Source: Bryobacterales bacterium (GTDB lineage Bacteria > Acidobacteriota > Terriglobia > Bryobacterales > Bryobacteraceae). Taken from it: 18,088 bases of DNA. How positions within the stretch are numbered: position 1 is the first letter of the stretch; every line of letters begins with the position of its first letter. A program made the translations under genes and the position numbers. Under the pieces are notes generated by a model. That model was not told the origin of the DNA and did not search any database. It saw only the letters and a list, made by a program, of their open reading frames with translations. The stretch lies in NCBI GenBank assembly GCA_003487005.1, contig DNFG01000162.1, forward strand, positions 1-18,088, in the 5' to 3' direction. This document shows, piece by piece, positions 7,355 to 14,304 of the stretch.

Positions 7355-7388
7355 AAGGGCGCGCCGCCTTTGCGCGGTGCGCCCTTTT
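7355..7388 (+). terminator. Rho-independent terminator of the export operon
   Basis: The left arm AAGGGCGCGCCG (7355-7366) pairs with the right arm CGGTGCGCCCTT (7375-7386) over 12 bp, counting one G-U pair. The 8-nt loop is CCTTTGCG. The right arm runs into TTTTC. It starts 27 nt after the tolC-like stop and ends 11 nt before the mutL start codon, leaving no room for a mutL promoter in between. Confidence 0.78.
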
Positions 7389-7399
7389 CATTTCGCATC

Positions 7400-9280
7400 A
7401 TGGGCCGGATTCACGTTCTCTCGGACAATGTCGCCAACAAGATCGCCGCGGGCGAGGTGGTGGAGCGGCCCGCTTCGGTCGTCAAGGAGTTGCTGGAGAA
7501 CTCTCTGGACGCCGGCGCGACGGACGTGCGTGTGGAGATCGAGGGCGGCGGGCGCCGGTTGATCCGGATCGCGGACAATGGCTGCGGAATGATGCGCGAC
7601 GACGCGATGCTGGCGTTTGAGAGGCACGCGACGTCGAAATTGTCGAATGTGGATGAGTTGGAGGCGATCGCGACGCTGGGCTTCCGGGGGGAGGCGCTGC
7701 CTTCGATCGCATCTGTTTCCCGGCTGGTTCTGGAGACGCGCGACCGCCATGAACAGGCGGGCACGCGGATCGAGATCGCGGGGGGGCGGCTGATGACCGT
7801 GGACGAAACCGCGTTTCCGGGCGGGACGACGATCACGGTTCGCGACCTGTTCTACAACGTGCCGGCCCGGAAGAAGTTCCTCCGTTCCGAACAGACCGAA
7901 CTTGCACACATCGCTTCGCTGGTCACCCATTACAGCCTCGCCAACCCGGACAAGAGCTTTTCGTTGACGCACGGCGAGCGGGATCTGCTGCGCGTGGCGC
8001 CAGTGGCGACGCAGCGCGAGCGGGTGTTTCAGGTGTTCGGCGACACGGCGCTGGAGGAGTTGATCGAGGTGGACACGCAGGTGAAGATCCTGCCGCTGCC
8101 CGACGGGGAGCGAGCGTTCACCGTTCACGGCTTCATTTCCCGGCCGCAGGTGCAAAAGTCGAACCGGAATTCGATCTATCTGTTCGTGAACCGGCGGGTG
8201 ATCCGGGACCGGTTGCTGTTGCACGCGATCTCGGCGGCTTATCACAACCTGATGCCGTCGGCCTGCTATCCGTTCGCGCTGCTGTTCGTGGATTGCGATC
8301 CGGGCGAGGTGGACGTCAACGTGCATCCTTCGAAGACGGAGGTCCGGTTCCGGCACGCGAGTTTCGTCCATGATTTCGTTCGCGACACGCTGCGGGAGAC
8401 TTTGATCAGCAAGCGACCGGCGCCGGCGGGGGCGATTCCGCTGCATTCGCCGTCGCAGCCGGCGGTGGGGTTGCCGTACTCGGAGTTCACCCAGTCGCTG
8501 GATGTGCCGCCCGCCGATGTGCCGCGCAGCGTGCTGCCGCCGCCGGACTTCCGGCTGCAGCCCACGGCAGCGCCGGCGCCGCGATTCGATTTCAGTGATG
8601 TGCCGCCGCCGCAGTCGCAGCCCTTGCGGCTGAGGGTGCCCGACACGCACACCGGATTTCCGGCGGATCTGGCGGTCGATCTGCCACCATCCATGGCGGA
8701 ATTGCCGGAATTGCGGCTGTTGGGCCAGATCCACGACAGTTTCATTCTGGCGGCGGGCCGAGAGGGGCTGTGGATCATCGATCAGCACGTGGCGCACGAA
8801 CGGATTCTGTTTGAGAAGGTGCTGAAGGCGCAGGCGCGCGGGGCGGTGGAGCAGCAGCGGTTGCTGATGCCCATCGTGCTGTCATTGACGCCCGCGCAGC
8901 AGGCGGAGTATGAGCGCATCGCCGCGGACCTGGCAATGGCGGGGTTCGAGACGGAGCCCTTCGGCCGGGGGACGATCGCCATCAAGGCTGCGCCGGCGGC
9001 ATTGCCGACGGCCGCGCTCGAGCGGGTGGTTTACGAGATCATCGAAATGGCGGAGAGCGAGTTGCGGAGCGTGTCGGTGGACGATCTGCGGCGGGGCATC
9101 GCGGCCTCGGTGGCGTGCCGGGCGGCGATCAAGATCAACATGCCGCTGGACATGGCGAAGATGGAGTGGCTACTGCGCGAACTGGCGGCGACCGACTATC
9201 CGATGGCCTGCCCACACGGGCGTCCGGTCGTTTTAAGATACGCTTTGCGTGACATTTTGCGCGGTTTTCACCGCATTTAA
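7400..9280 (+). CDS. mutL: DNA mismatch repair protein MutL
   Basis: MutL couples mismatch recognition by MutS to strand removal. The 626-residue protein has the GHKL ATPase domain at the N-terminus: KELLENSLDAG near 30-40, DNGCGM at 59-64, GFRGEAL at 94-100. A Pro-rich linker (about 335-435) leads to the C-terminal dimerisation/endonuclease domain. The metal-binding motif DQHA-x2-E-x4-E appears as DQHVAHERILFE (461-472), with Val in place of Ala; ACR (572-574) and CPHGRP (604-609) are also present. This is the nicking type of MutL found in bacteria lacking MutH. ATG 7400 is chosen because the family starts just before IHVLSDNVANKIAAGEVVERP; an in-frame TTG at 7370 lies in the terminator loop. 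No Shine-Dalgarno sequence is evident. No mutS is in the window. Confidence 0.96.
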   Translation: MGRIHVLSDNVANKIAAGEVVERPASVVKELLENSLDAGATDVRVEIEGGGRRLIRIADNGCGMMRDDAMLAFERHATSKLSNVDELEAIATLGFRGEALPSIASVSRLVLETRDRHEQAGTRIEIAGGRLMTVDETAFPGGTTITVRDLFYNVPARKKFLRSEQTELAHIASLVTHYSLANPDKSFSLTHGERDLLRVAPVATQRERVFQVFGDTALEELIEVDTQVKILPLPDGERAFTVHGFISRPQVQKSNRNSIYLFVNRRVIRDRLLLHAISAAYHNLMPSACYPFALLFVDCDPGEVDVNVHPSKTEVRFRHASFVHDFVRDTLRETLISKRPAPAGAIPLHSPSQPAVGLPYSEFTQSLDVPPADVPRSVLPPPDFRLQPTAAPAPRFDFSDVPPPQSQPLRLRVPDTHTGFPADLAVDLPPSMAELPELRLLGQIHDSFILAAGREGLWIIDQHVAHERILFEKVLKAQARGAVEQQRLLMPIVLSLTPAQQAEYERIAADLAMAGFETEPFGRGTIAIKAAPAALPTAALERVVYEIIEMAESELRSVSVDDLRRGIAASVACRAAIKINMPLDMAKMEWLLRELAATDYPMACPHGRPVVLRYALRDILRGFHRI

Positions 9281-9294
9281 GCAGGGAAGTGGCG

Positions 9295-10167
9295 ATGATT
9301 CGCATCTGGCTTTCACGCGAGGGTCCACCGATCCGGGAGCAGCTCAGCGCTCAGTTGCTGCTGGGGATTCTGAGCGGGCAACTGGCCGGCGGCGCCCGCT
9401 TGCCGAGCGTGCGCGAGTTTGCGCGGCGGCTGAAGATCCACCGGAACACGGTGAGCGCGGTTTATCAGGATCTGGAGGAGCGTGGCTGGCTGGAAATGCG
9501 TGCCGGGAGCGGCGTGTTCGTGGCCTCGGGACGGGCGGAGCGGTTGGGTGGGGTGGACTCGTTTGTCCGGCTGTGGGTGGAACAGGCGCGGCTGCAGGGC
9601 TATGGTCCGGAGGAACTGCGTGCGGCGCTGGACCGGATCACGGACAGCCGGGATCTTCATGAGCGCGTGGTGGTGGACCCGGACCCCGAATTGGCGCGCA
9701 TCATCGCGGCTGAGTTGGAGGAGGCGATCGGGGAAGCGGTGCCTTTTTCGGGTCTCGATGAGCGCCCGCGCGCGGCGCTGCTGCTGGTGAGCGAAGGGAA
9801 TGCGGGGGCGGTGGCGGCACGGTGGCCCGATGCCCGGCTGAAGCGGTTTCACTTGAAGTCGGTCCCGGAATTGGTGGCGGGCATCCAGCGGCCACCGTTT
9901 CCGGTACTGATCGGGCTGGTGTCGCGATCGCCATCGATTCTGCAATGGGCGCGGACGCTGCTGTCGGCTTTGGGTTTCCCGCCGGACCAGGTGTTGCTGC
10001 GAAATCCGGAGGAGGCGGACTGGCACGAGGGGTTGCGCGCGTGCGCCATCGTGGCGGCGGACGTCGTGGCGGCGAGGGCGTTTCCTGCGGATGGCCCCCG
10101 GCCGCGGGTGTTCCGGGTGGTGGCGCAAGATTCGCTCGAAGCTCTGCGCGGCGTTGTGCCAGATTGA
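9295..10167 (+). CDS. GntR-family transcriptional regulator with unrecognised C-terminal domain
   Basis: This is a 290-residue DNA-binding regulator. Residues about 1-75 form the GntR winged helix-turn-helix: PIREQLSAQLLLGILSG, then LPSVREFARRLKIHRNTVSAVYQDLEERGWLEMRAGSGVFV. The remaining 215 residues are not a MocR-type aminotransferase (too short, no pyridoxal lysine motif seen) and exceed the small YtrA type. They show alternating strands and helices (RAALLLVSEGNAGAVAARWP, FPVLIGLVSRSPSILQWARTLL, RVFRVVAQDSLEALR) like a Rossmann-type ligand domain, but I do not recognise the family. The start is ATG 9295 with AGGGA about 8 nt upstream; GTG 9289 is possible. It follows mutL by 14 nt, probably on the same transcript. 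Its stop codon lies inside a palindrome that recurs 514 bp downstream, so it may bind that site. Confidence 0.85.
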   Translation: MIRIWLSREGPPIREQLSAQLLLGILSGQLAGGARLPSVREFARRLKIHRNTVSAVYQDLEERGWLEMRAGSGVFVASGRAERLGGVDSFVRLWVEQARLQGYGPEELRAALDRITDSRDLHERVVVDPDPELARIIAAELEEAIGEAVPFSGLDERPRAALLLVSEGNAGAVAARWPDARLKRFHLKSVPELVAGIQRPPFPVLIGLVSRSPSILQWARTLLSALGFPPDQVLLRNPEEADWHEGLRACAIVAADVVAARAFPADGPRPRVFRVVAQDSLEALRGVVPD

Positions 10168-10179
10168 GAACTGGCACAA
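10154..10179. promoter_or_regulatory. Palindromic element, copy 1 (possible operator)
   Basis: Perfect 9-bp arms TTGTGCCAG and CTGGCACAA flank an 8-bp centre (ATTGAGAA). The GntR gene stop (10165-10167) lies in the centre. The midpoint is about 54 nt upstream of the next ATG (10221), the same distance as in copy 2. No U-tract follows, so it is a poor terminator. Confidence 0.75.
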
Positions 10180-10208
10180 GCGCGGGTCTGCGCCCGTCAT
10201 TTCTGCCC

Positions 10209-10214
10209 TACGCT
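10209..10214 (+). promoter_or_regulatory. TACGCT -10-like box, 6 nt before ATG
   Basis: TACGCT ends 6 nt before ATG 10221, with no Shine-Dalgarno sequence between. The block CCTACGCT..GG.CATGAGAATGATCA is shared with the next palindrome-preceded gene. The spacing fits a -10 box giving a leaderless mRNA. No convincing -35 box is seen. Confidence 0.45.
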
Positions 10215-10220
10215 TCGGTC

Positions 10221-10652
10221 ATGAGAATGATCAAGTGTGTCCCTGCTTACCCGTTCCGCCGCATTCTGCGCGCCCTGATTGCGTTGGTCTGCGTCGCAAC
10301 CCTACTGCCGGCGGGTGACGCGCCACCGCCCTTGGCCGGATACATCAAGAACCTGCCGAAGGGCCGCCGCATCGAGGTGCGGATGACGTCCGGGGTGGTG
10401 CTGGTCGGCCGGGTGGGCACGGTCCGGAGCGACTCCTTCGTTCTCGGGCCCGATCACAAGGCAGGCACCGCGCAGGAGATCGAGTACAAGGACGTGCGCG
10501 ATGTGAAGATCCGATCGACTGGTACCGAGAAGTGGATCATTGGGATCACGATCTTCCTGGCGCTCGCCGGATGGAGTGCCCTGTTCGGCGATCCCCGCTC
10601 CAGTAAACCGCCAGAGCCGGGCCAACCGCGCGGAGTCGCACGAATCCCATGA
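10221..10652 (+). CDS. Small membrane/exported protein with Sm-like barrel core
   Basis: This is a 143-residue protein that I cannot name. A basic N-terminus and a hydrophobic stretch (about 15-31, ILRALIALVCVATLLPAG) look like a signal peptide or anchor. Residues about 48-98 match the pattern of an Sm-like/SH3-like small barrel: RRIEVRMTSGVVLVGRVGTV, DSFVLG, then EIEYKDVRDVKI. A hydrophobic helix follows (about 105-122) and a Pro-rich tail. It resembles the three genes downstream in plan (export signal, barrel, membrane segment) but is much more diverged. The open frame continues upstream over the GntR gene; the start at ATG 10221 is supported by the signal-like sequence and by the same MRMI start in the next gene. 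A second ATG at 10230 is not excluded. Function unknown. Confidence 0.72.
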   Translation: MRMIKCVPAYPFRRILRALIALVCVATLLPAGDAPPPLAGYIKNLPKGRRIEVRMTSGVVLVGRVGTVRSDSFVLGPDHKAGTAQEIEYKDVRDVKIRSTGTEKWIIGITIFLALAGWSALFGDPRSSKPPEPGQPRGVARIP

Positions 10653-10666
10653 CCATGAGCGGCCGG

Positions 10667-10694
10667 CTTGTGCCAGATCGAAAACTGGCACAAG
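10667..10694. promoter_or_regulatory. Palindromic element, copy 2 (possible operator)
   Basis: Perfect 10-bp arms CTTGTGCCAG and CTGGCACAAG flank an 8-bp centre (ATCGAAAA). It matches copy 1 at 24 of the 26 shared positions; the differences are only in the centre. It lies 14 nt after the preceding stop and is centred about 54 nt before ATG 10735. Confidence 0.78.
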
Positions 10695-10722
10695 AAGCCG
10701 CCCGGGGCGTCTGGATTCGGCC

Positions 10723-10728
10723 TACGCT
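10723..10728 (+). promoter_or_regulatory. TACGCT -10-like box, 6 nt before ATG (second copy)
   Basis: TACGCT is again exactly 6 nt before ATG 10735, without a Shine-Dalgarno sequence. It is the same arrangement as at 10209-10221, including the distance to the palindrome. It is probably the promoter of the three-gene paralogue array. Confidence 0.45.
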
Positions 10729-10734
10729 GTGGCC

Positions 10735-11445
10735 ATGAGAATGATCACCCTACTTCTGGCAGCCGTCCCACTCCTCCTCCACGCCGCGCCGCCCATGCCG
10801 GTCGAGTGGGAGATGACCCCCGCCGCCTTTGGGGGCCGGAAAGCGATTGTGAAACTCGATACCGGCGCGCGGATCGAGGGGAACTGGTTGGGCGTGACGC
10901 CCACCACGTTCACGATCGATGTGGAGCGGTCCAGGGGGAAGAACCAGCCGCGGAGGGGCGTGCACACGTTGGACCGGAGCGCGATTGTTGAACTGCGCTT
11001 GCAGGAGAAGCGGATCCGGGGACGGGTCTGGGGGACTGTCTTTGGATTCGTGGCAGGCAGCTCCGCGCTCAGCGTTGTTCATGGCCGTTCCTGGGAACAG
11101 GGCCGTTCCCTGGAAAAGAAGGCCGGCCCGGCCCTGGGGGTGTTCTACGGCGTACTCGTGGCTTCCTACATGGCCGGCAGAGCTTTCGACAAGGCCACGC
11201 GGGTGGTGCTGATCAAGAGGGAAAGCCCGCAAAGCGGCGGGCTGAGGGATCTGGAAGGGACCGGACTGAGCATTCCTCCAGAGGCAATTGGCCTGGAGGA
11301 GGCAAAGGAGAACATGAGCCATGAAACGACTGACACTGGTGTTGTTGGCTCCGGTGCTGCTGTACGCCGCGCCACCATTGCCGATCGAGTGGGAGATGAC
11401 GACCGCGGCATTCGGCGGCCGGAAGGCGATTGTGAAACTCGATAG
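10735..11445 (+). CDS. Exported Sm-like-core membrane protein, paralogue A (C-terminally extended)
   Basis: This is a 236-residue protein of unrecognised function and the first of three tandem paralogues. A signal peptide (about 1-18, MRMITLLLAAVPLLLHAAPP) precedes a conserved core (about 22-98). The core resembles an Sm-like barrel: KAIVKLDTGARIEGNWLGV, TTFTIDVERSRGK, and HTLDRSAIVELRLQEKRIRG. Two Gly-rich hydrophobic segments follow (about 99-115 and 131-150), then RVVLIKRES. Over 77 core residues it matches paralogue B at about 62 positions by eye. After KRES it has no stop where paralogue C ends and runs on about 73 residues, the last 42 codons inside paralogue B in another frame (125-nt overlap). 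The tail has no resemblance to the siblings, so it looks like accidental read-through after loss of a stop. The palindrome and TACGCT box lie upstream. Confidence 0.75.
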   Translation: MRMITLLLAAVPLLLHAAPPMPVEWEMTPAAFGGRKAIVKLDTGARIEGNWLGVTPTTFTIDVERSRGKNQPRRGVHTLDRSAIVELRLQEKRIRGRVWGTVFGFVAGSSALSVVHGRSWEQGRSLEKKAGPALGVFYGVLVASYMAGRAFDKATRVVLIKRESPQSGGLRDLEGTGLSIPPEAIGLEEAKENMSHETTDTGVVGSGAAVRRATIADRVGDDDRGIRRPEGDCETR

Positions 11446-11991
11446 CGGCGCACGGATTGAGGGGGTTTGGTTGGATGTGACACCCACTACGTTCACGATC
11501 GACGTGGACCGGACGAAGGGGAAGAACGGGCCGCCGAAAGGCGTTCAGACACTTGAGCGCAGTTCGATCGTCGAATTGCGCCTGCAGGAGAGGCGGATAC
11601 GCGGACGCGTGATCGGGACACTCATTGGCTACTTCGGCGGAATGCCGCTTGCTTATCAGGCTCCGTCCGCCGCCGTCGGCTTGCCGGTGCTGATCGCGAT
11701 GTTGACCACTTCCCACCTCTTGGGGCGAGCCTCGGACAAGACCACCCGTGTGGTTTACATCAAGCCGGAGAGTCCACCAGACGTCCGACTGAAGGAAAGC
11801 AAGGCGACCGAATCGCAGTTTCCTCTGGAGACAATGGGGCCACAGGAGAACGAAGGGAAACAGTAATCGTGAGACATCTATTTCTGCTGTTTCTGGCGCC
11901 GGCGCTGCTGCCCGCCGCGCCACCGGCGCCGATCGAGTGGGAGGCGACCACGGCGATTCTGGGTGGCCACACAGCGATTGTGAAACTCGAT
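10843..11991 (+). repeat. Tandem gene duplication (three paralogous copies)
   Basis: An identical 18-bp block GCGATTGTGAAACTCGAT begins at 10843, 11426 and 11974, inside the barrel core of paralogues A, B and C. Flanking codons for GARIEG and VTPTTFT are also near-identical. The copies are spaced about 583 and 548 bp apart, one per gene, as expected from repeated tandem duplication. Confidence 0.85.
11321..11866 (+). CDS. Exported Sm-like-core membrane protein, paralogue B
   Basis: This is a 181-residue protein of unrecognised function. It has a signal peptide (about 1-17, MKRLTLVLLAPVLLYAAPP) and a conserved core (about 20-96) with AIVKLDSGARIEGVWLDV, TTFTIDVDRTKGK and QTLERSSIVELRLQERRIRG. 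A hydrophobic region (about 97-136, GTLIGYFGGM and VGLPVLIAMLTTSHLLG) follows, then TRVVYIKPESP and a charged 30-residue tail. Its ATG has AAGGAG 10 nt upstream, lying inside paralogue A, so translation is probably coupled. The core is close to paralogues A and C while the hydrophobic part is diverged. This suggests selection on the barrel and freedom in, or specialisation of, the membrane part. Confidence 0.78.
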   Translation: MKRLTLVLLAPVLLYAAPPLPIEWEMTTAAFGGRKAIVKLDSGARIEGVWLDVTPTTFTIDVDRTKGKNGPPKGVQTLERSSIVELRLQERRIRGRVIGTLIGYFGGMPLAYQAPSAAVGLPVLIAMLTTSHLLGRASDKTTRVVYIKPESPPDVRLKESKATESQFPLETMGPQENEGKQ

Positions 11992-12324
11992 AGCGGCGCG
12001 CGAATCGAAGGGGCCTGGCTGGGGGTGACACCCACCACTTTTACAATGGATGTGAAGCGGGCGAAGGGTAAGAACCGGCCGGCGAAGGGCGTGCAGACGA
12101 TTGGGCGCAGCGCAATCGTCGAATTGCGTGTGCGGAGGCATCGGATTCGCGGGAGGGGGTTTGGGGTACTCACCGCCCTCTTCCTGACGCCCAACCTGCT
12201 TCTCCGCACTTCGTCCGTTCCTGTGATTTGGACGGTGTGTATCGGCGTGGGAGTGGCTCCCATCATCGCAGGGGCAATATGGGACCACAGCTCGCAGGTG
12301 GTTCACATCAAGCCGGAAAGTTAA
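11869..12324 (+). CDS. Exported Sm-like-core membrane protein, paralogue C
   Basis: This is a 151-residue protein of unrecognised function and the shortest of the three paralogues. It has a signal peptide (about 1-17, MRHLFLLFLAPALLPAAPP) and a core (about 20-96) with AIVKLDSGARIEGAWLGV, TTFTMDVKRAKGK and QTIGRSAIVELRVRRHRIRG. Two hydrophobic segments (about 98-113 and 118-138) follow, and it ends at QVVHIKPES. By eye about 57 of 77 core residues match paralogue B. The start is GTG 11869, 2 nt after the previous stop, with GAAGGG about 10 nt upstream. Its TAA overlaps the stop of the convergent radical-SAM gene, so no terminator lies between them. Confidence 0.76.
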   Translation: MRHLFLLFLAPALLPAAPPAPIEWEATTAILGGHTAIVKLDSGARIEGAWLGVTPTTFTMDVKRAKGKNRPAKGVQTIGRSAIVELRVRRHRIRGRGFGVLTALFLTPNLLLRTSSVPVIWTVCIGVGVAPIIAGAIWDHSSQVVHIKPES

Positions 12325-13541
12325 TACGGGCTGATGCTGTGCGGCGTGAGGTCGGCGGCGTGGCCGAGGAGTTTCTTCACTTCCTCGCGCAACGGTCCGA
12401 CGGCTTTGGCGAAGATCATCTTGTAGGCTTGGCAGAAATAGTCCAGATCTTCGAATTTCCTGTTCTGGCCGTGGCGGGATTTCGGACAGCCGCCGTGGCA
12501 AATCGATTGATATTCGCAGACCTGACATTCCGGATGGGCCAGTGTTTTCTTCGCGGCGAAATTGTAGCGGCGGACACGGCGGGAGATTTCGCTCCAGCTA
12601 TCCAGGTTCACATTGCCCAGCTTCCACTCCTTTTCGACAAAGAAATCGCACGGGTAGATGTCGCCGTTGTATTCCACCACGACGTAGCTGTCACAGGTCT
12701 CGTGCATCGTGCAACTGCCGGGTTTTTGGCCCGCGAGCGCCTCGGCCAGGTTGTCGAAGAAGCGGACGCGCACCTTCCGGCGCTCGGGCCACCAGAGTTC
12801 GAAGACTTCGCACATGAAACGGCCATACTCGTCCGGCGTGATCGTGAAAGGCATCGGCGTCCCGTCGGGGTGAAATTCCGACAGGGGGATGAACTGCATG
12901 AAATCCAGGCCGAGGCCGCGAAAGAACTTGTAAATCTCTTTCGGCTTGTGAACGTTGGACTGGCTCAGCACGCAGAGAACATTGAAATCCACTTTTTCCT
13001 TCTGCATGGTTTCAATACCCTGCATCACCTTTTTCCAGGTGCCGTGGCCTGCGCGGTTGAAGCGGTAGAGGTCGTTCACTTCCTCGGGACCGTCGATCGA
13101 GATGCCGATCAGCCAGTTGTAGGCGCGGAAAAGCTGGCACCAGTCCTTGTCGAGCAGGACGCCGTTGGTCTGGAGGGCGTTCGAGACGTTCTGGCCGTCG
13201 CGGCCGAAGCGCTGCTGGAACTCAACAAGCTTGGTGAAGAAATCGAGGCCGGCGAGGGTCGGTTCACCGCCCTGAAAGGCAAAGGTGGCGTTCGGATAGG
13301 AGTAGAACAGGTAGGTGTCAACGAGGCGCTCGAGGGTGTCGAGGGTCATCCGGCGGGCGGGCAGATCCTTATACGGGTCGGCTTCGCGATCGAGATAGAA
13401 GCAGTATTCGCAATCGAGGTTGCAGACGGCCGAGGCGGGCTTGATCAGCAGCGACGTGATCTTCGGCGCGGGGCCCGAAACGAGGGCGGAGGGCGAGCCT
13501 GTGTCGCCACTCAGGATCGAGAAGGGGCTGCCGTTCGTCAT
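12321..13541 (-). CDS. Radical SAM/SPASM enzyme, anaerobic sulfatase-maturase type
   Basis: The family (anSME) converts an active-site Cys or Ser of sulfatases to formylglycine using S-adenosylmethionine and Fe-S clusters in the cytoplasm. The 406-residue protein has the radical-SAM cluster motif C-x3-C-x2-C as CNLDCEYCFYL (Cys 40, 44, 47). It then has FQGGEPTLAGLDFF, ALQTNGVLLD and GISIDGPEEVND. The C-terminal SPASM cysteines include CDSYVVVEYNGDIYPCDFFVEKEWKLGNV and CQVCEYQSICHGGCPKSRH. No sulfatase or small peptide substrate gene is visible nearby. The start at 13541 is chosen because it clears the divergent gene; GTACACTCCC upstream has no Shine-Dalgarno sequence but contains TACACT 8 nt before the ATG. 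ATG 13562 would overlap the divergent start. A peptide-modifying SPASM enzyme is a less likely alternative. Confidence 0.9.
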   Translation of the reverse strand: MTNGSPFSILSGDTGSPSALVSGPAPKITSLLIKPASAVCNLDCEYCFYLDREADPYKDLPARRMTLDTLERLVDTYLFYSYPNATFAFQGGEPTLAGLDFFTKLVEFQQRFGRDGQNVSNALQTNGVLLDKDWCQLFRAYNWLIGISIDGPEEVNDLYRFNRAGHGTWKKVMQGIETMQKEKVDFNVLCVLSQSNVHKPKEIYKFFRGLGLDFMQFIPLSEFHPDGTPMPFTITPDEYGRFMCEVFELWWPERRKVRVRFFDNLAEALAGQKPGSCTMHETCDSYVVVEYNGDIYPCDFFVEKEWKLGNVNLDSWSEISRRVRRYNFAAKKTLAHPECQVCEYQSICHGGCPKSRHGQNRKFEDLDYFCQAYKMIFAKAVGPLREEVKKLLGHAADLTPHSISPY

Positions 13542-13560
13542 ATGTTGGGAGTGTACCACC

Positions 13561-14304
13561 ATGAATCCAGCCAAGCCGGACGAAACTGTCCAGATGATCG
13601 TTGAACGGCTGACTGCGCTGTCGGACCCGGCGTTCGCCGCCGGCCAGCGGCGGTTCTTTCAGCACGAAGTGGAGACGGTCGGGGTCCGGTCGGCGGATCT
13701 GCACCGGTTGGCGAGGGAGTTGAGCGGGGAGATCAAGGGGTGGCCGCTGACTGCGAGAAACCGCCTGATGGAGTCGCTGTGGCGGGATGGGCGGATCGAG
13801 ACTGGCGCGCTGGTCTGCTACCTTTACCGGCGCTTCGCGCAGCAGTGCGGGGTTTGTGAATTCAAGCTCTTCGAGCGCTGGATCGACCGTCATGTGCGCA
13901 ATTGGGCGCATTGTGACGGGGTGGCGTCGTGGCTGTTGGCGGCTTCGATCGCCAATGAGCCGGAATTGCGGCTGCATCTGGTGTCTTGGACGGGATCGAA
14001 GAACCGCTGGAAGCGCCGGGCGGCGGCGGTGGCGCTGTTGCAGGAGGCGAAGGCCGGCCGGAATTTCGAGACGATCACCGAGGTGGCCACACGCTTGATT
14101 GCGGACCGGGACGACATGGTGGAGAAGGGACTCGGCTGGCTACTGAAGGAGGCGTACCCGAAGCAACCGGAGGCCACATTTGCGTTCCTGATGGAGCAGC
14201 GCGGGCGGGCGTCGCGGCTCATGCTGAGGATCGCGGCCGAGAAGATGCCGGCTGGGAGGAGACGGGAGTTGCTGGCGCGGAATCAGCCCCGGGCGCGCTC
14301 GTGA
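13561..14304 (+). CDS. AlkD-like DNA alkylation repair protein (HEAT-repeat DNA glycosylase)
   Basis: AlkD-type enzymes remove N3- and N7-alkylated purines from DNA using an all-helical HEAT-like scaffold. This 247-residue protein is of family length. It shows the family pattern RRFFQHEVETVGVRSADLHRLAREL (about 30-54), NWAHCDGVASWLL (114-126), SKNRWKRRAAAVALL (146-160) and MVEKGLGWLLKEAYPKQPE (186-204). Trp115, Asp119, an Arg near 152-153 and Trp193 sit where Bacillus AlkD has its lesion-contacting Trp109, Asp113, Arg148 and Trp187. The start ATG 13561 has GGGAG at 13547-13551. It diverges from the radical-SAM gene with only 19 bp between starts and overlaps the convergent thioesterase gene by 22 nt. 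Confidence 0.88.
   Translation: MNPAKPDETVQMIVERLTALSDPAFAAGQRRFFQHEVETVGVRSADLHRLARELSGEIKGWPLTARNRLMESLWRDGRIETGALVCYLYRRFAQQCGVCEFKLFERWIDRHVRNWAHCDGVASWLLAASIANEPELRLHLVSWTGSKNRWKRRAAAVALLQEAKAGRNFETITEVATRLIADRDDMVEKGLGWLLKEAYPKQPEATFAFLMEQRGRASRLMLRIAAEKMPAGRRRELLARNQPRARS

Follow-up and report, generated by a model that had tools for sequence, protein, structure and literature searches.

Predicted operators of a GntR-type regulator at promoters without a -35 element in Terriglobia

The window, which is the whole stretch of 18,088 nucleotides analysed here, carries two copies of a palindrome next to a gene encoding a GntR-type regulator. The explanation that accounts best for all the data, and which we hold to be very probable, is that these palindromes are operators of the adjacent GntR protein, whose dimer would activate promoters that lack a -35 element and are often leaderless. 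The sequence evidence that the palindromes are operators of the protein encoded beside copy 1 is strong. The features involved are the following:

9295..10167, strand +: GntR-type regulator of 290 amino acids with a winged-helix head (PF00392), two helices and an extra alpha/beta domain
10154..10179, no strand assigned: predicted operator 1, TTGTGCCAG-ATTGAGAA-CTGGCACAA, of the form TTGTGCCAG-N8-CTGGCACAA
10209..10214, strand +: candidate -10 hexamer TACGCT, separated by 29 nt from operator 1 and by 6 nt from the ATG downstream
10221..10652, strand +: exported-protein gene 1, open frame of 143 amino acids, with a 92% identical copy in the same-genus genome G001
10668..10693 (10667-10694 with an extra outer pair), no strand assigned: predicted operator 2, TTGTGCCAG-ATCGAAAA-CTGGCACAA
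10723..10728, strand +: candidate -10 hexamer TACGCT, separated by 29 nt from operator 2 and by 6 nt from the ATG downstream
10735..11445, strand +: exported-protein gene 2, open frame of 236 amino acids, its end overlapping the next gene
11321..11866, strand +: tandem paralogue of gene 2, 181 amino acids, predicted Sm-like barrel plus two helices
11869..12324, strand +: second tandem paralogue of gene 2, open frame of 151 amino acids with a GTG start

Palindromes in the window and in its genome

The two palindromes described in the first-pass annotation were found as claimed, copies 1 and 2 being identical at 24 of 26 positions and varying in the centre alone, where two positions differ. Each copy ends 41 nt 5' of an ATG (10221 and 10735) and the centres of both are 54.5 nt 5' of these codons, in agreement with the equal distances described before. 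The block CCTACGCT..GG.CATGAGAATGATCA also recurs downstream of both copies (27 nt, 89%), as had been indicated, and the GntR frame, starting at the ATG in 9295, indeed terminates within copy 1 (stop codon at 10165-10167). However, the two downstream genes had been called related, and this was not sustained: no relationship between the products of the 10221 and 10735 genes was detectable by BLASTP (E 0.41). The weak alignment obtained spans the same stretch in both products.

The assembly containing the window (4.47 Mb in 527 contigs, 84% complete; the window is on contig C490) presented four sites with at most one mismatch, versus none for the reversed control, and five versus two when up to three mismatches were allowed. 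One additional match, asymmetric and on contig C511, was given by the pattern TGTGMCA-N10-TGKCACA with at most one mismatch. The two sites outside the window, on C191 and C347, are located 42 and 41 nt, respectively, 5' of exported-protein ATGs, and each of the four sites, distributed on three contigs, thus precedes by 41-42 nt the ATG of a gene for a small exported protein. The scan of the genome previously proposed therefore yielded four copies rather than hundreds, with one distance to the start codon. The exported proteins of C191 and C347 share 44% identity over 175 columns. The C347 protein showed no detectable relationship with window protein 1, and in a search of the other 60 genomes nothing matched it at E <= 0.001.

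Among 61 genomes searched, own genome included, the window form of the palindrome was present only in the latter and in G001, which has two such sites. Exact window-form palindromes were also seen in Undibacterium, a Lachnospiraceae, a Cellvibrionaceae and Idiomarina (L046-L049), a number of matches that fits chance. Two of these four unrelated matches have a TANNNT at offset 29, which with four sites is read as chance as well.

The regulator and its relatives in Terriglobia

The GntR head (PF00392) was recognised with 46.9 bits against a cut-off of 27, which places the regulator in the GntR family. The Pfam run was made from the upstream GTG at 9289, and the ATG at 9295 was chosen as start by alignment with relatives. 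This head was the sole Pfam domain above the cut-off, and neither an FCD/FadR-C nor a UTRA C-terminal domain, as in FadR and HutC, was matched up to E 0.1. The AlphaFold2 model (62 sequences; mean pLDDT 87.1, pTM 0.60) consists of the head, two YtrA-like helices and an alpha/beta domain from about residue 122 to 285. Solved relatives found by sequence search cover the head and partly the two helices, and the structural matches to the model mostly concern the same part. The extra C-terminal domain may be a sensor.

Near-full-length matches of the GntR protein were obtained in 6 of the 61 genomes, most other matches being restricted to the DNA-binding head. With a matrix built from the six sites of the genus, the best match in the G007 locus reached 19.3 bits (next 3.6) and that in the G026 locus 14.8 bits (next 10.3). 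Both are exactly 67 nt 5' of the ATG that follows the GntR gene, which is the window offset, and TACCGT or TATGCT is found 12 nt 5' of that ATG. In G058 the best match (19.4 bits) falls on the regulator's own start, and in G016 no matrix site was detected beside the GntR gene (best 8.2 bits). Matrix values did not exceed 6.5 bits at 24 control loci with GntR head matches only (L018-L041). Likewise, no convincing site was seen at eight loci having target homologues without the regulator (L057, L059-L064 and L067; at most 8.2 bits).

Across the class, a search of 399 Terriglobia genomes at E <= 1e-25 identified GntR relatives in 71, including a few partial matches. Twenty-nine loci were examined, namely the 28 outside the genus among the best 30 class-wide matches, plus L014. 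TGTGACA-N10-TGTCACA, with at most two mismatches in 14 positions, was found within 800 nt of the gene at 21 of these 29 loci, versus about 0.4 expected by arithmetic. In addition, L017, L073, L074 and L098 have a palindrome with three or four mismatches at the end of the GntR gene, and the site of L075 was found by the matrix alone (13.0 bits). No convincing palindrome was identified beside the GntR gene of L014, L079 and L095 by either the motif or the matrix scan. A related form of the palindrome therefore adjoins GntR genes in other genera and families of Terriglobia, which is the recurrence sought by the proposed scan of relatives. Most of these palindromes are at or shortly after the GntR stop codon and 5' of the next gene; G007, G314, G148 and G026 have a poor right half-site that overlaps that stop codon. 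In family f5 (L072, L078 and L081) the palindrome is not behind the gene but coincides with the GntR start or precedes it. Since the site lies on the GntR start in L072 and, in L081, ends 7 nt before a TAGATT, the sequence suggests that the f5 regulator is autoregulated.

The association was also evaluated at genome level with a strict form, YTGTGACA-N10-TGTCACAR with at most one mismatch. Of the 72 genomes with the regulator (the 71 above plus G016; reversed control 0), 30 contained it, versus 3 of 69 without a full-length match (control 1). The latter are a non-random draw of 20 Terriglobia genomes listed without any match and 49 from the 61-genome search. Fisher's test gave 7e-8 overall and 2e-4 within family f1 (7/17 vs 1/46), values whose significance is overstated by shared descent. 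Half of the 36 strict matches (18) are on contigs other than that of the GntR gene or lie over 800 nt away from it, so the link exceeds mere neighbourhood. The 42 regulator genomes without the strict form include the own genome, with its diverged form, and G007, with its weak right half-site. G120 has five strict matches, none of them near its GntR match (L124, L133-L135), and possibly possesses a larger regulon.

The version of the operator in the genus of the window, not contemplated in the first-pass annotation, differs jointly in both half-sites from the common form: GTGCCA/TGGCAC in the window versus GTGACA/TGTCAC elsewhere. Copy 1 of G001 has one half-site of each kind. Residue 50 of the regulator (window about 9442-9444), which lies between two invariant residues, His49 and Asn51, is Arg in all seven close sequences and in 8 of 55 others. 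This distribution, together with the joint difference of the half-sites, suggests a specificity shift in this genus, residue 50 being a possible specificity residue that accompanies GTGCCA half-sites.

Promoter geometry, proposed mechanism and alternatives

A set of 41 sites was aligned, comprising the 36 strict matches, the four own sites and the second G001 site, and both orientations were scanned without choosing. In 28 of them the palindrome is followed by a TANNNT beginning at an offset of exactly 29 nt, whereas the next best offset occurs in five and the mean over 120 offsets is 0.55. The same holds for 24 of 35 sites outside the genus, and by hand count the 28 include 11 of the 18 distant strict sites. 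A hand-oriented set, from which several matches were omitted and in which weaker GntR-adjacent sites were included, gave 32 of 43. The hexamer is missing at this offset in 13 of the 41 sites, and C191 and C347 have CAGACT and CAATCT instead. Nearly all the conservation resides in the palindrome, its centre and the TANNNT, and the usual -35 positions show none; nor was any two-hexamer sigma-70 promoter found in 10050-10850.

The distance from the start of the site to the start codon peaks at 67 and 68 nt, and values from 70 to 121 were also seen, for which a leader may be present. The ATG is often 6-7 nt after TANNNT, as in leaderless genes, and in the window both hexamers (10209 and 10723) start 12 nt 5' of the ATG. 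A TANNNT about 12 bp 5' of the start codon is reported as a mark of leaderless genes in Acidobacteria, with an average of 13.3% of the genes in three genomes (PMC3160421). Hexamer and distance are alike here; unlike in the leaderless promoters described in that source, TANNNT is associated with a single regulator and lies at a constant 29 nt from an upstream operator.

The DNA itself displays the sites, the association with the regulator gene and the constant geometry; binding, activation, start points, effector and target function are inferences. In the proposed mechanism, a GntR dimer with its YtrA-like head, two dimerisation helices and extra alpha/beta domain would read TGTG-N16-CACA. Placed at about -67 to -42 (centre about -54) of the target promoters, it would contact RNA polymerase and compensate for the missing -35 element. 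The TANNNT starting exactly 29 nt downstream of the operator would serve as -10, and at most targets with 67-68 nt spacing transcription would start at or near the ATG, producing a leaderless mRNA. The targets would be small exported membrane proteins, and the f5 regulator would control its own gene through the operator located at or 5' of its start. We infer activation from geometry, because about 42 nt separate the end of the site from the expected start, the 29-nt gap is invariant and the -35 is absent. The -10-like hexamer at this gap without a -35, not contemplated in the first-pass annotation, is what points to activation.

An alternative of limited though appreciable probability is that the GntR protein binds and represses, the fixed distance reflecting common descent of the promoters or a phasing-dependent repressor. 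A YtrA-like protein of Sulfolobus is described as a repressor of membrane-protein genes (PMC6746942). In line with repression, the sites of G058 and G066 coincide with the start of the regulator gene or immediately precede it, a position at which binding would block, and the two promoters of the window share a duplicated block. However, the 29-nt gap is kept before genes of different families in the 24 of 35 sites outside the genus, the -35 is unconserved, and the position of the site before the expected start is outside the core promoter.

It is considerably less probable that another dimeric regulator, for example of CRP type, binds the palindromes and that the GntR gene is either uninvolved or itself controlled by that regulator. 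CRP-type half-sites are TGTGA/TCACA with a spacing of N6, and the common half-site TGTGACA includes TGTGA; moreover, the strict match occurs in three of the 69 genomes without this GntR protein, whose binding is itself a prediction from sequence. Nevertheless, the strict form follows the GntR gene, within one family too, adjacency to GntR recurs across families, and TGTG-N16-CACA has the spacing described for a YtrA-like operator rather than N6. It is hardly credible that the palindromes are mobile REP-like elements, or that they form a terminator or processing hairpin where gntR ends. The arms are long and perfect and copy 1 overlaps a gene end, but gntR does not precede the copies on C191 and C347. 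A REP repeat was rejected with four copies in 4.47 Mb (of a genome 84% complete), all equidistant from the start codon, and an intrinsic terminator (stem-loop and T run) with no terminator-like site in 10050-10850. The earlier proposal of a dimeric-regulator operator with the GntR protein as candidate binder is thus supported by copy number, fixed distance, recurrence beside GntR relatives and a distribution among genomes that tracks the regulator.

Known regulators, target genes and neighbours

The YtrA subfamily of GntR proteins offers the closest comparison in several aspects. The regulator's head and two helices match YtrA-type structures (3neu, 4ham and 6sbs). YtrA motifs are described as long palindromes in which GT and AC stand well away from the centre (PMC4494728), as is also the case in the 41 aligned sites; the TGTG-N16-CACA of these sites has the N16 spacing of the operator GGTG-N16-CACC given for a YtrA-like protein (PMC6746942). 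The predicted targets are membrane proteins, as with YtrA-Sa of Sulfolobus and the YtrA-like protein of Xanthomonas citri. However, the C-terminal part of YtrA is described as two helices only, of about 50 residues (PMC4494728), whereas this regulator has an extra alpha/beta domain of about 165 residues in place of a reduced C-terminus. Because of this domain it is not a YtrA member by definition, yet it would work YtrA-like at the DNA. Also unlike YtrA systems, there are several operators per genome in places, the YtrA operon with ABC-transporter genes is not found in the window, and activation from a fixed position is predicted instead of repression over the start; most characterised YtrA-type proteins are repressors in the descriptions at hand. 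GabR and MocR proteins have the GntR head in common with this regulator, and GabR, according to PDB titles, is an autorepressor and transcriptional activator, the same pair of roles proposed here. In contrast to them, an aminotransferase-like C-terminal domain gave no Pfam match up to E 0.1 in this protein of only 290 residues, and the operators are inverted instead of direct repeats.

On balance, we lean slightly towards a class-wide system of Terriglobia for which no description was found. In it, a YtrA-headed GntR protein with an alpha/beta sensor domain would be an obligatory activator replacing the -35 at leaderless promoters, at a base-exact distance, and controlling exported membrane proteins, among them some predicted to contain an Sm-like barrel; half-sites and Arg50 would have changed together in the genus of the window. 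To our knowledge, few Acidobacteriota regulators have been studied, and here a regulator, its predicted operator, a promoter geometry and target genes were obtained from sequence in several Terriglobia families. If activation is true, the system would clearly exemplify a GntR protein acting as fixed-distance activator at leaderless promoters without a -35, and would offer a way to study exported proteins for which an Sm-like fold is predicted.

The targets are predicted to be small exported membrane proteins, one of which was modelled as an Sm-like barrel with two helices; solved members of this fold among the structures matched are mostly intracellular RNA-binding proteins. Exported-protein gene 1 gave no Pfam match. 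Three tandem paralogues (10735, 11321 and 11869) occupy 10735-12324, those at 11321 and 11869 being probably in the operon of gene 2. The frame of gene 2 overlaps the next gene, which is read in a different frame, by about 120 nt, and most of its close homologues have 184-188 amino acids. Directly behind the tandem genes, a radical SAM/SPASM protein is encoded on the minus strand (12321-13574). Finally, gntR lies between mutL and the exported-protein genes; as mutL (7370-9280) ends 14 nt 5' of the GntR ATG, both may be cotranscribed. A MacB-type permease gene is located further upstream, two genes from this neighbour of gntR.
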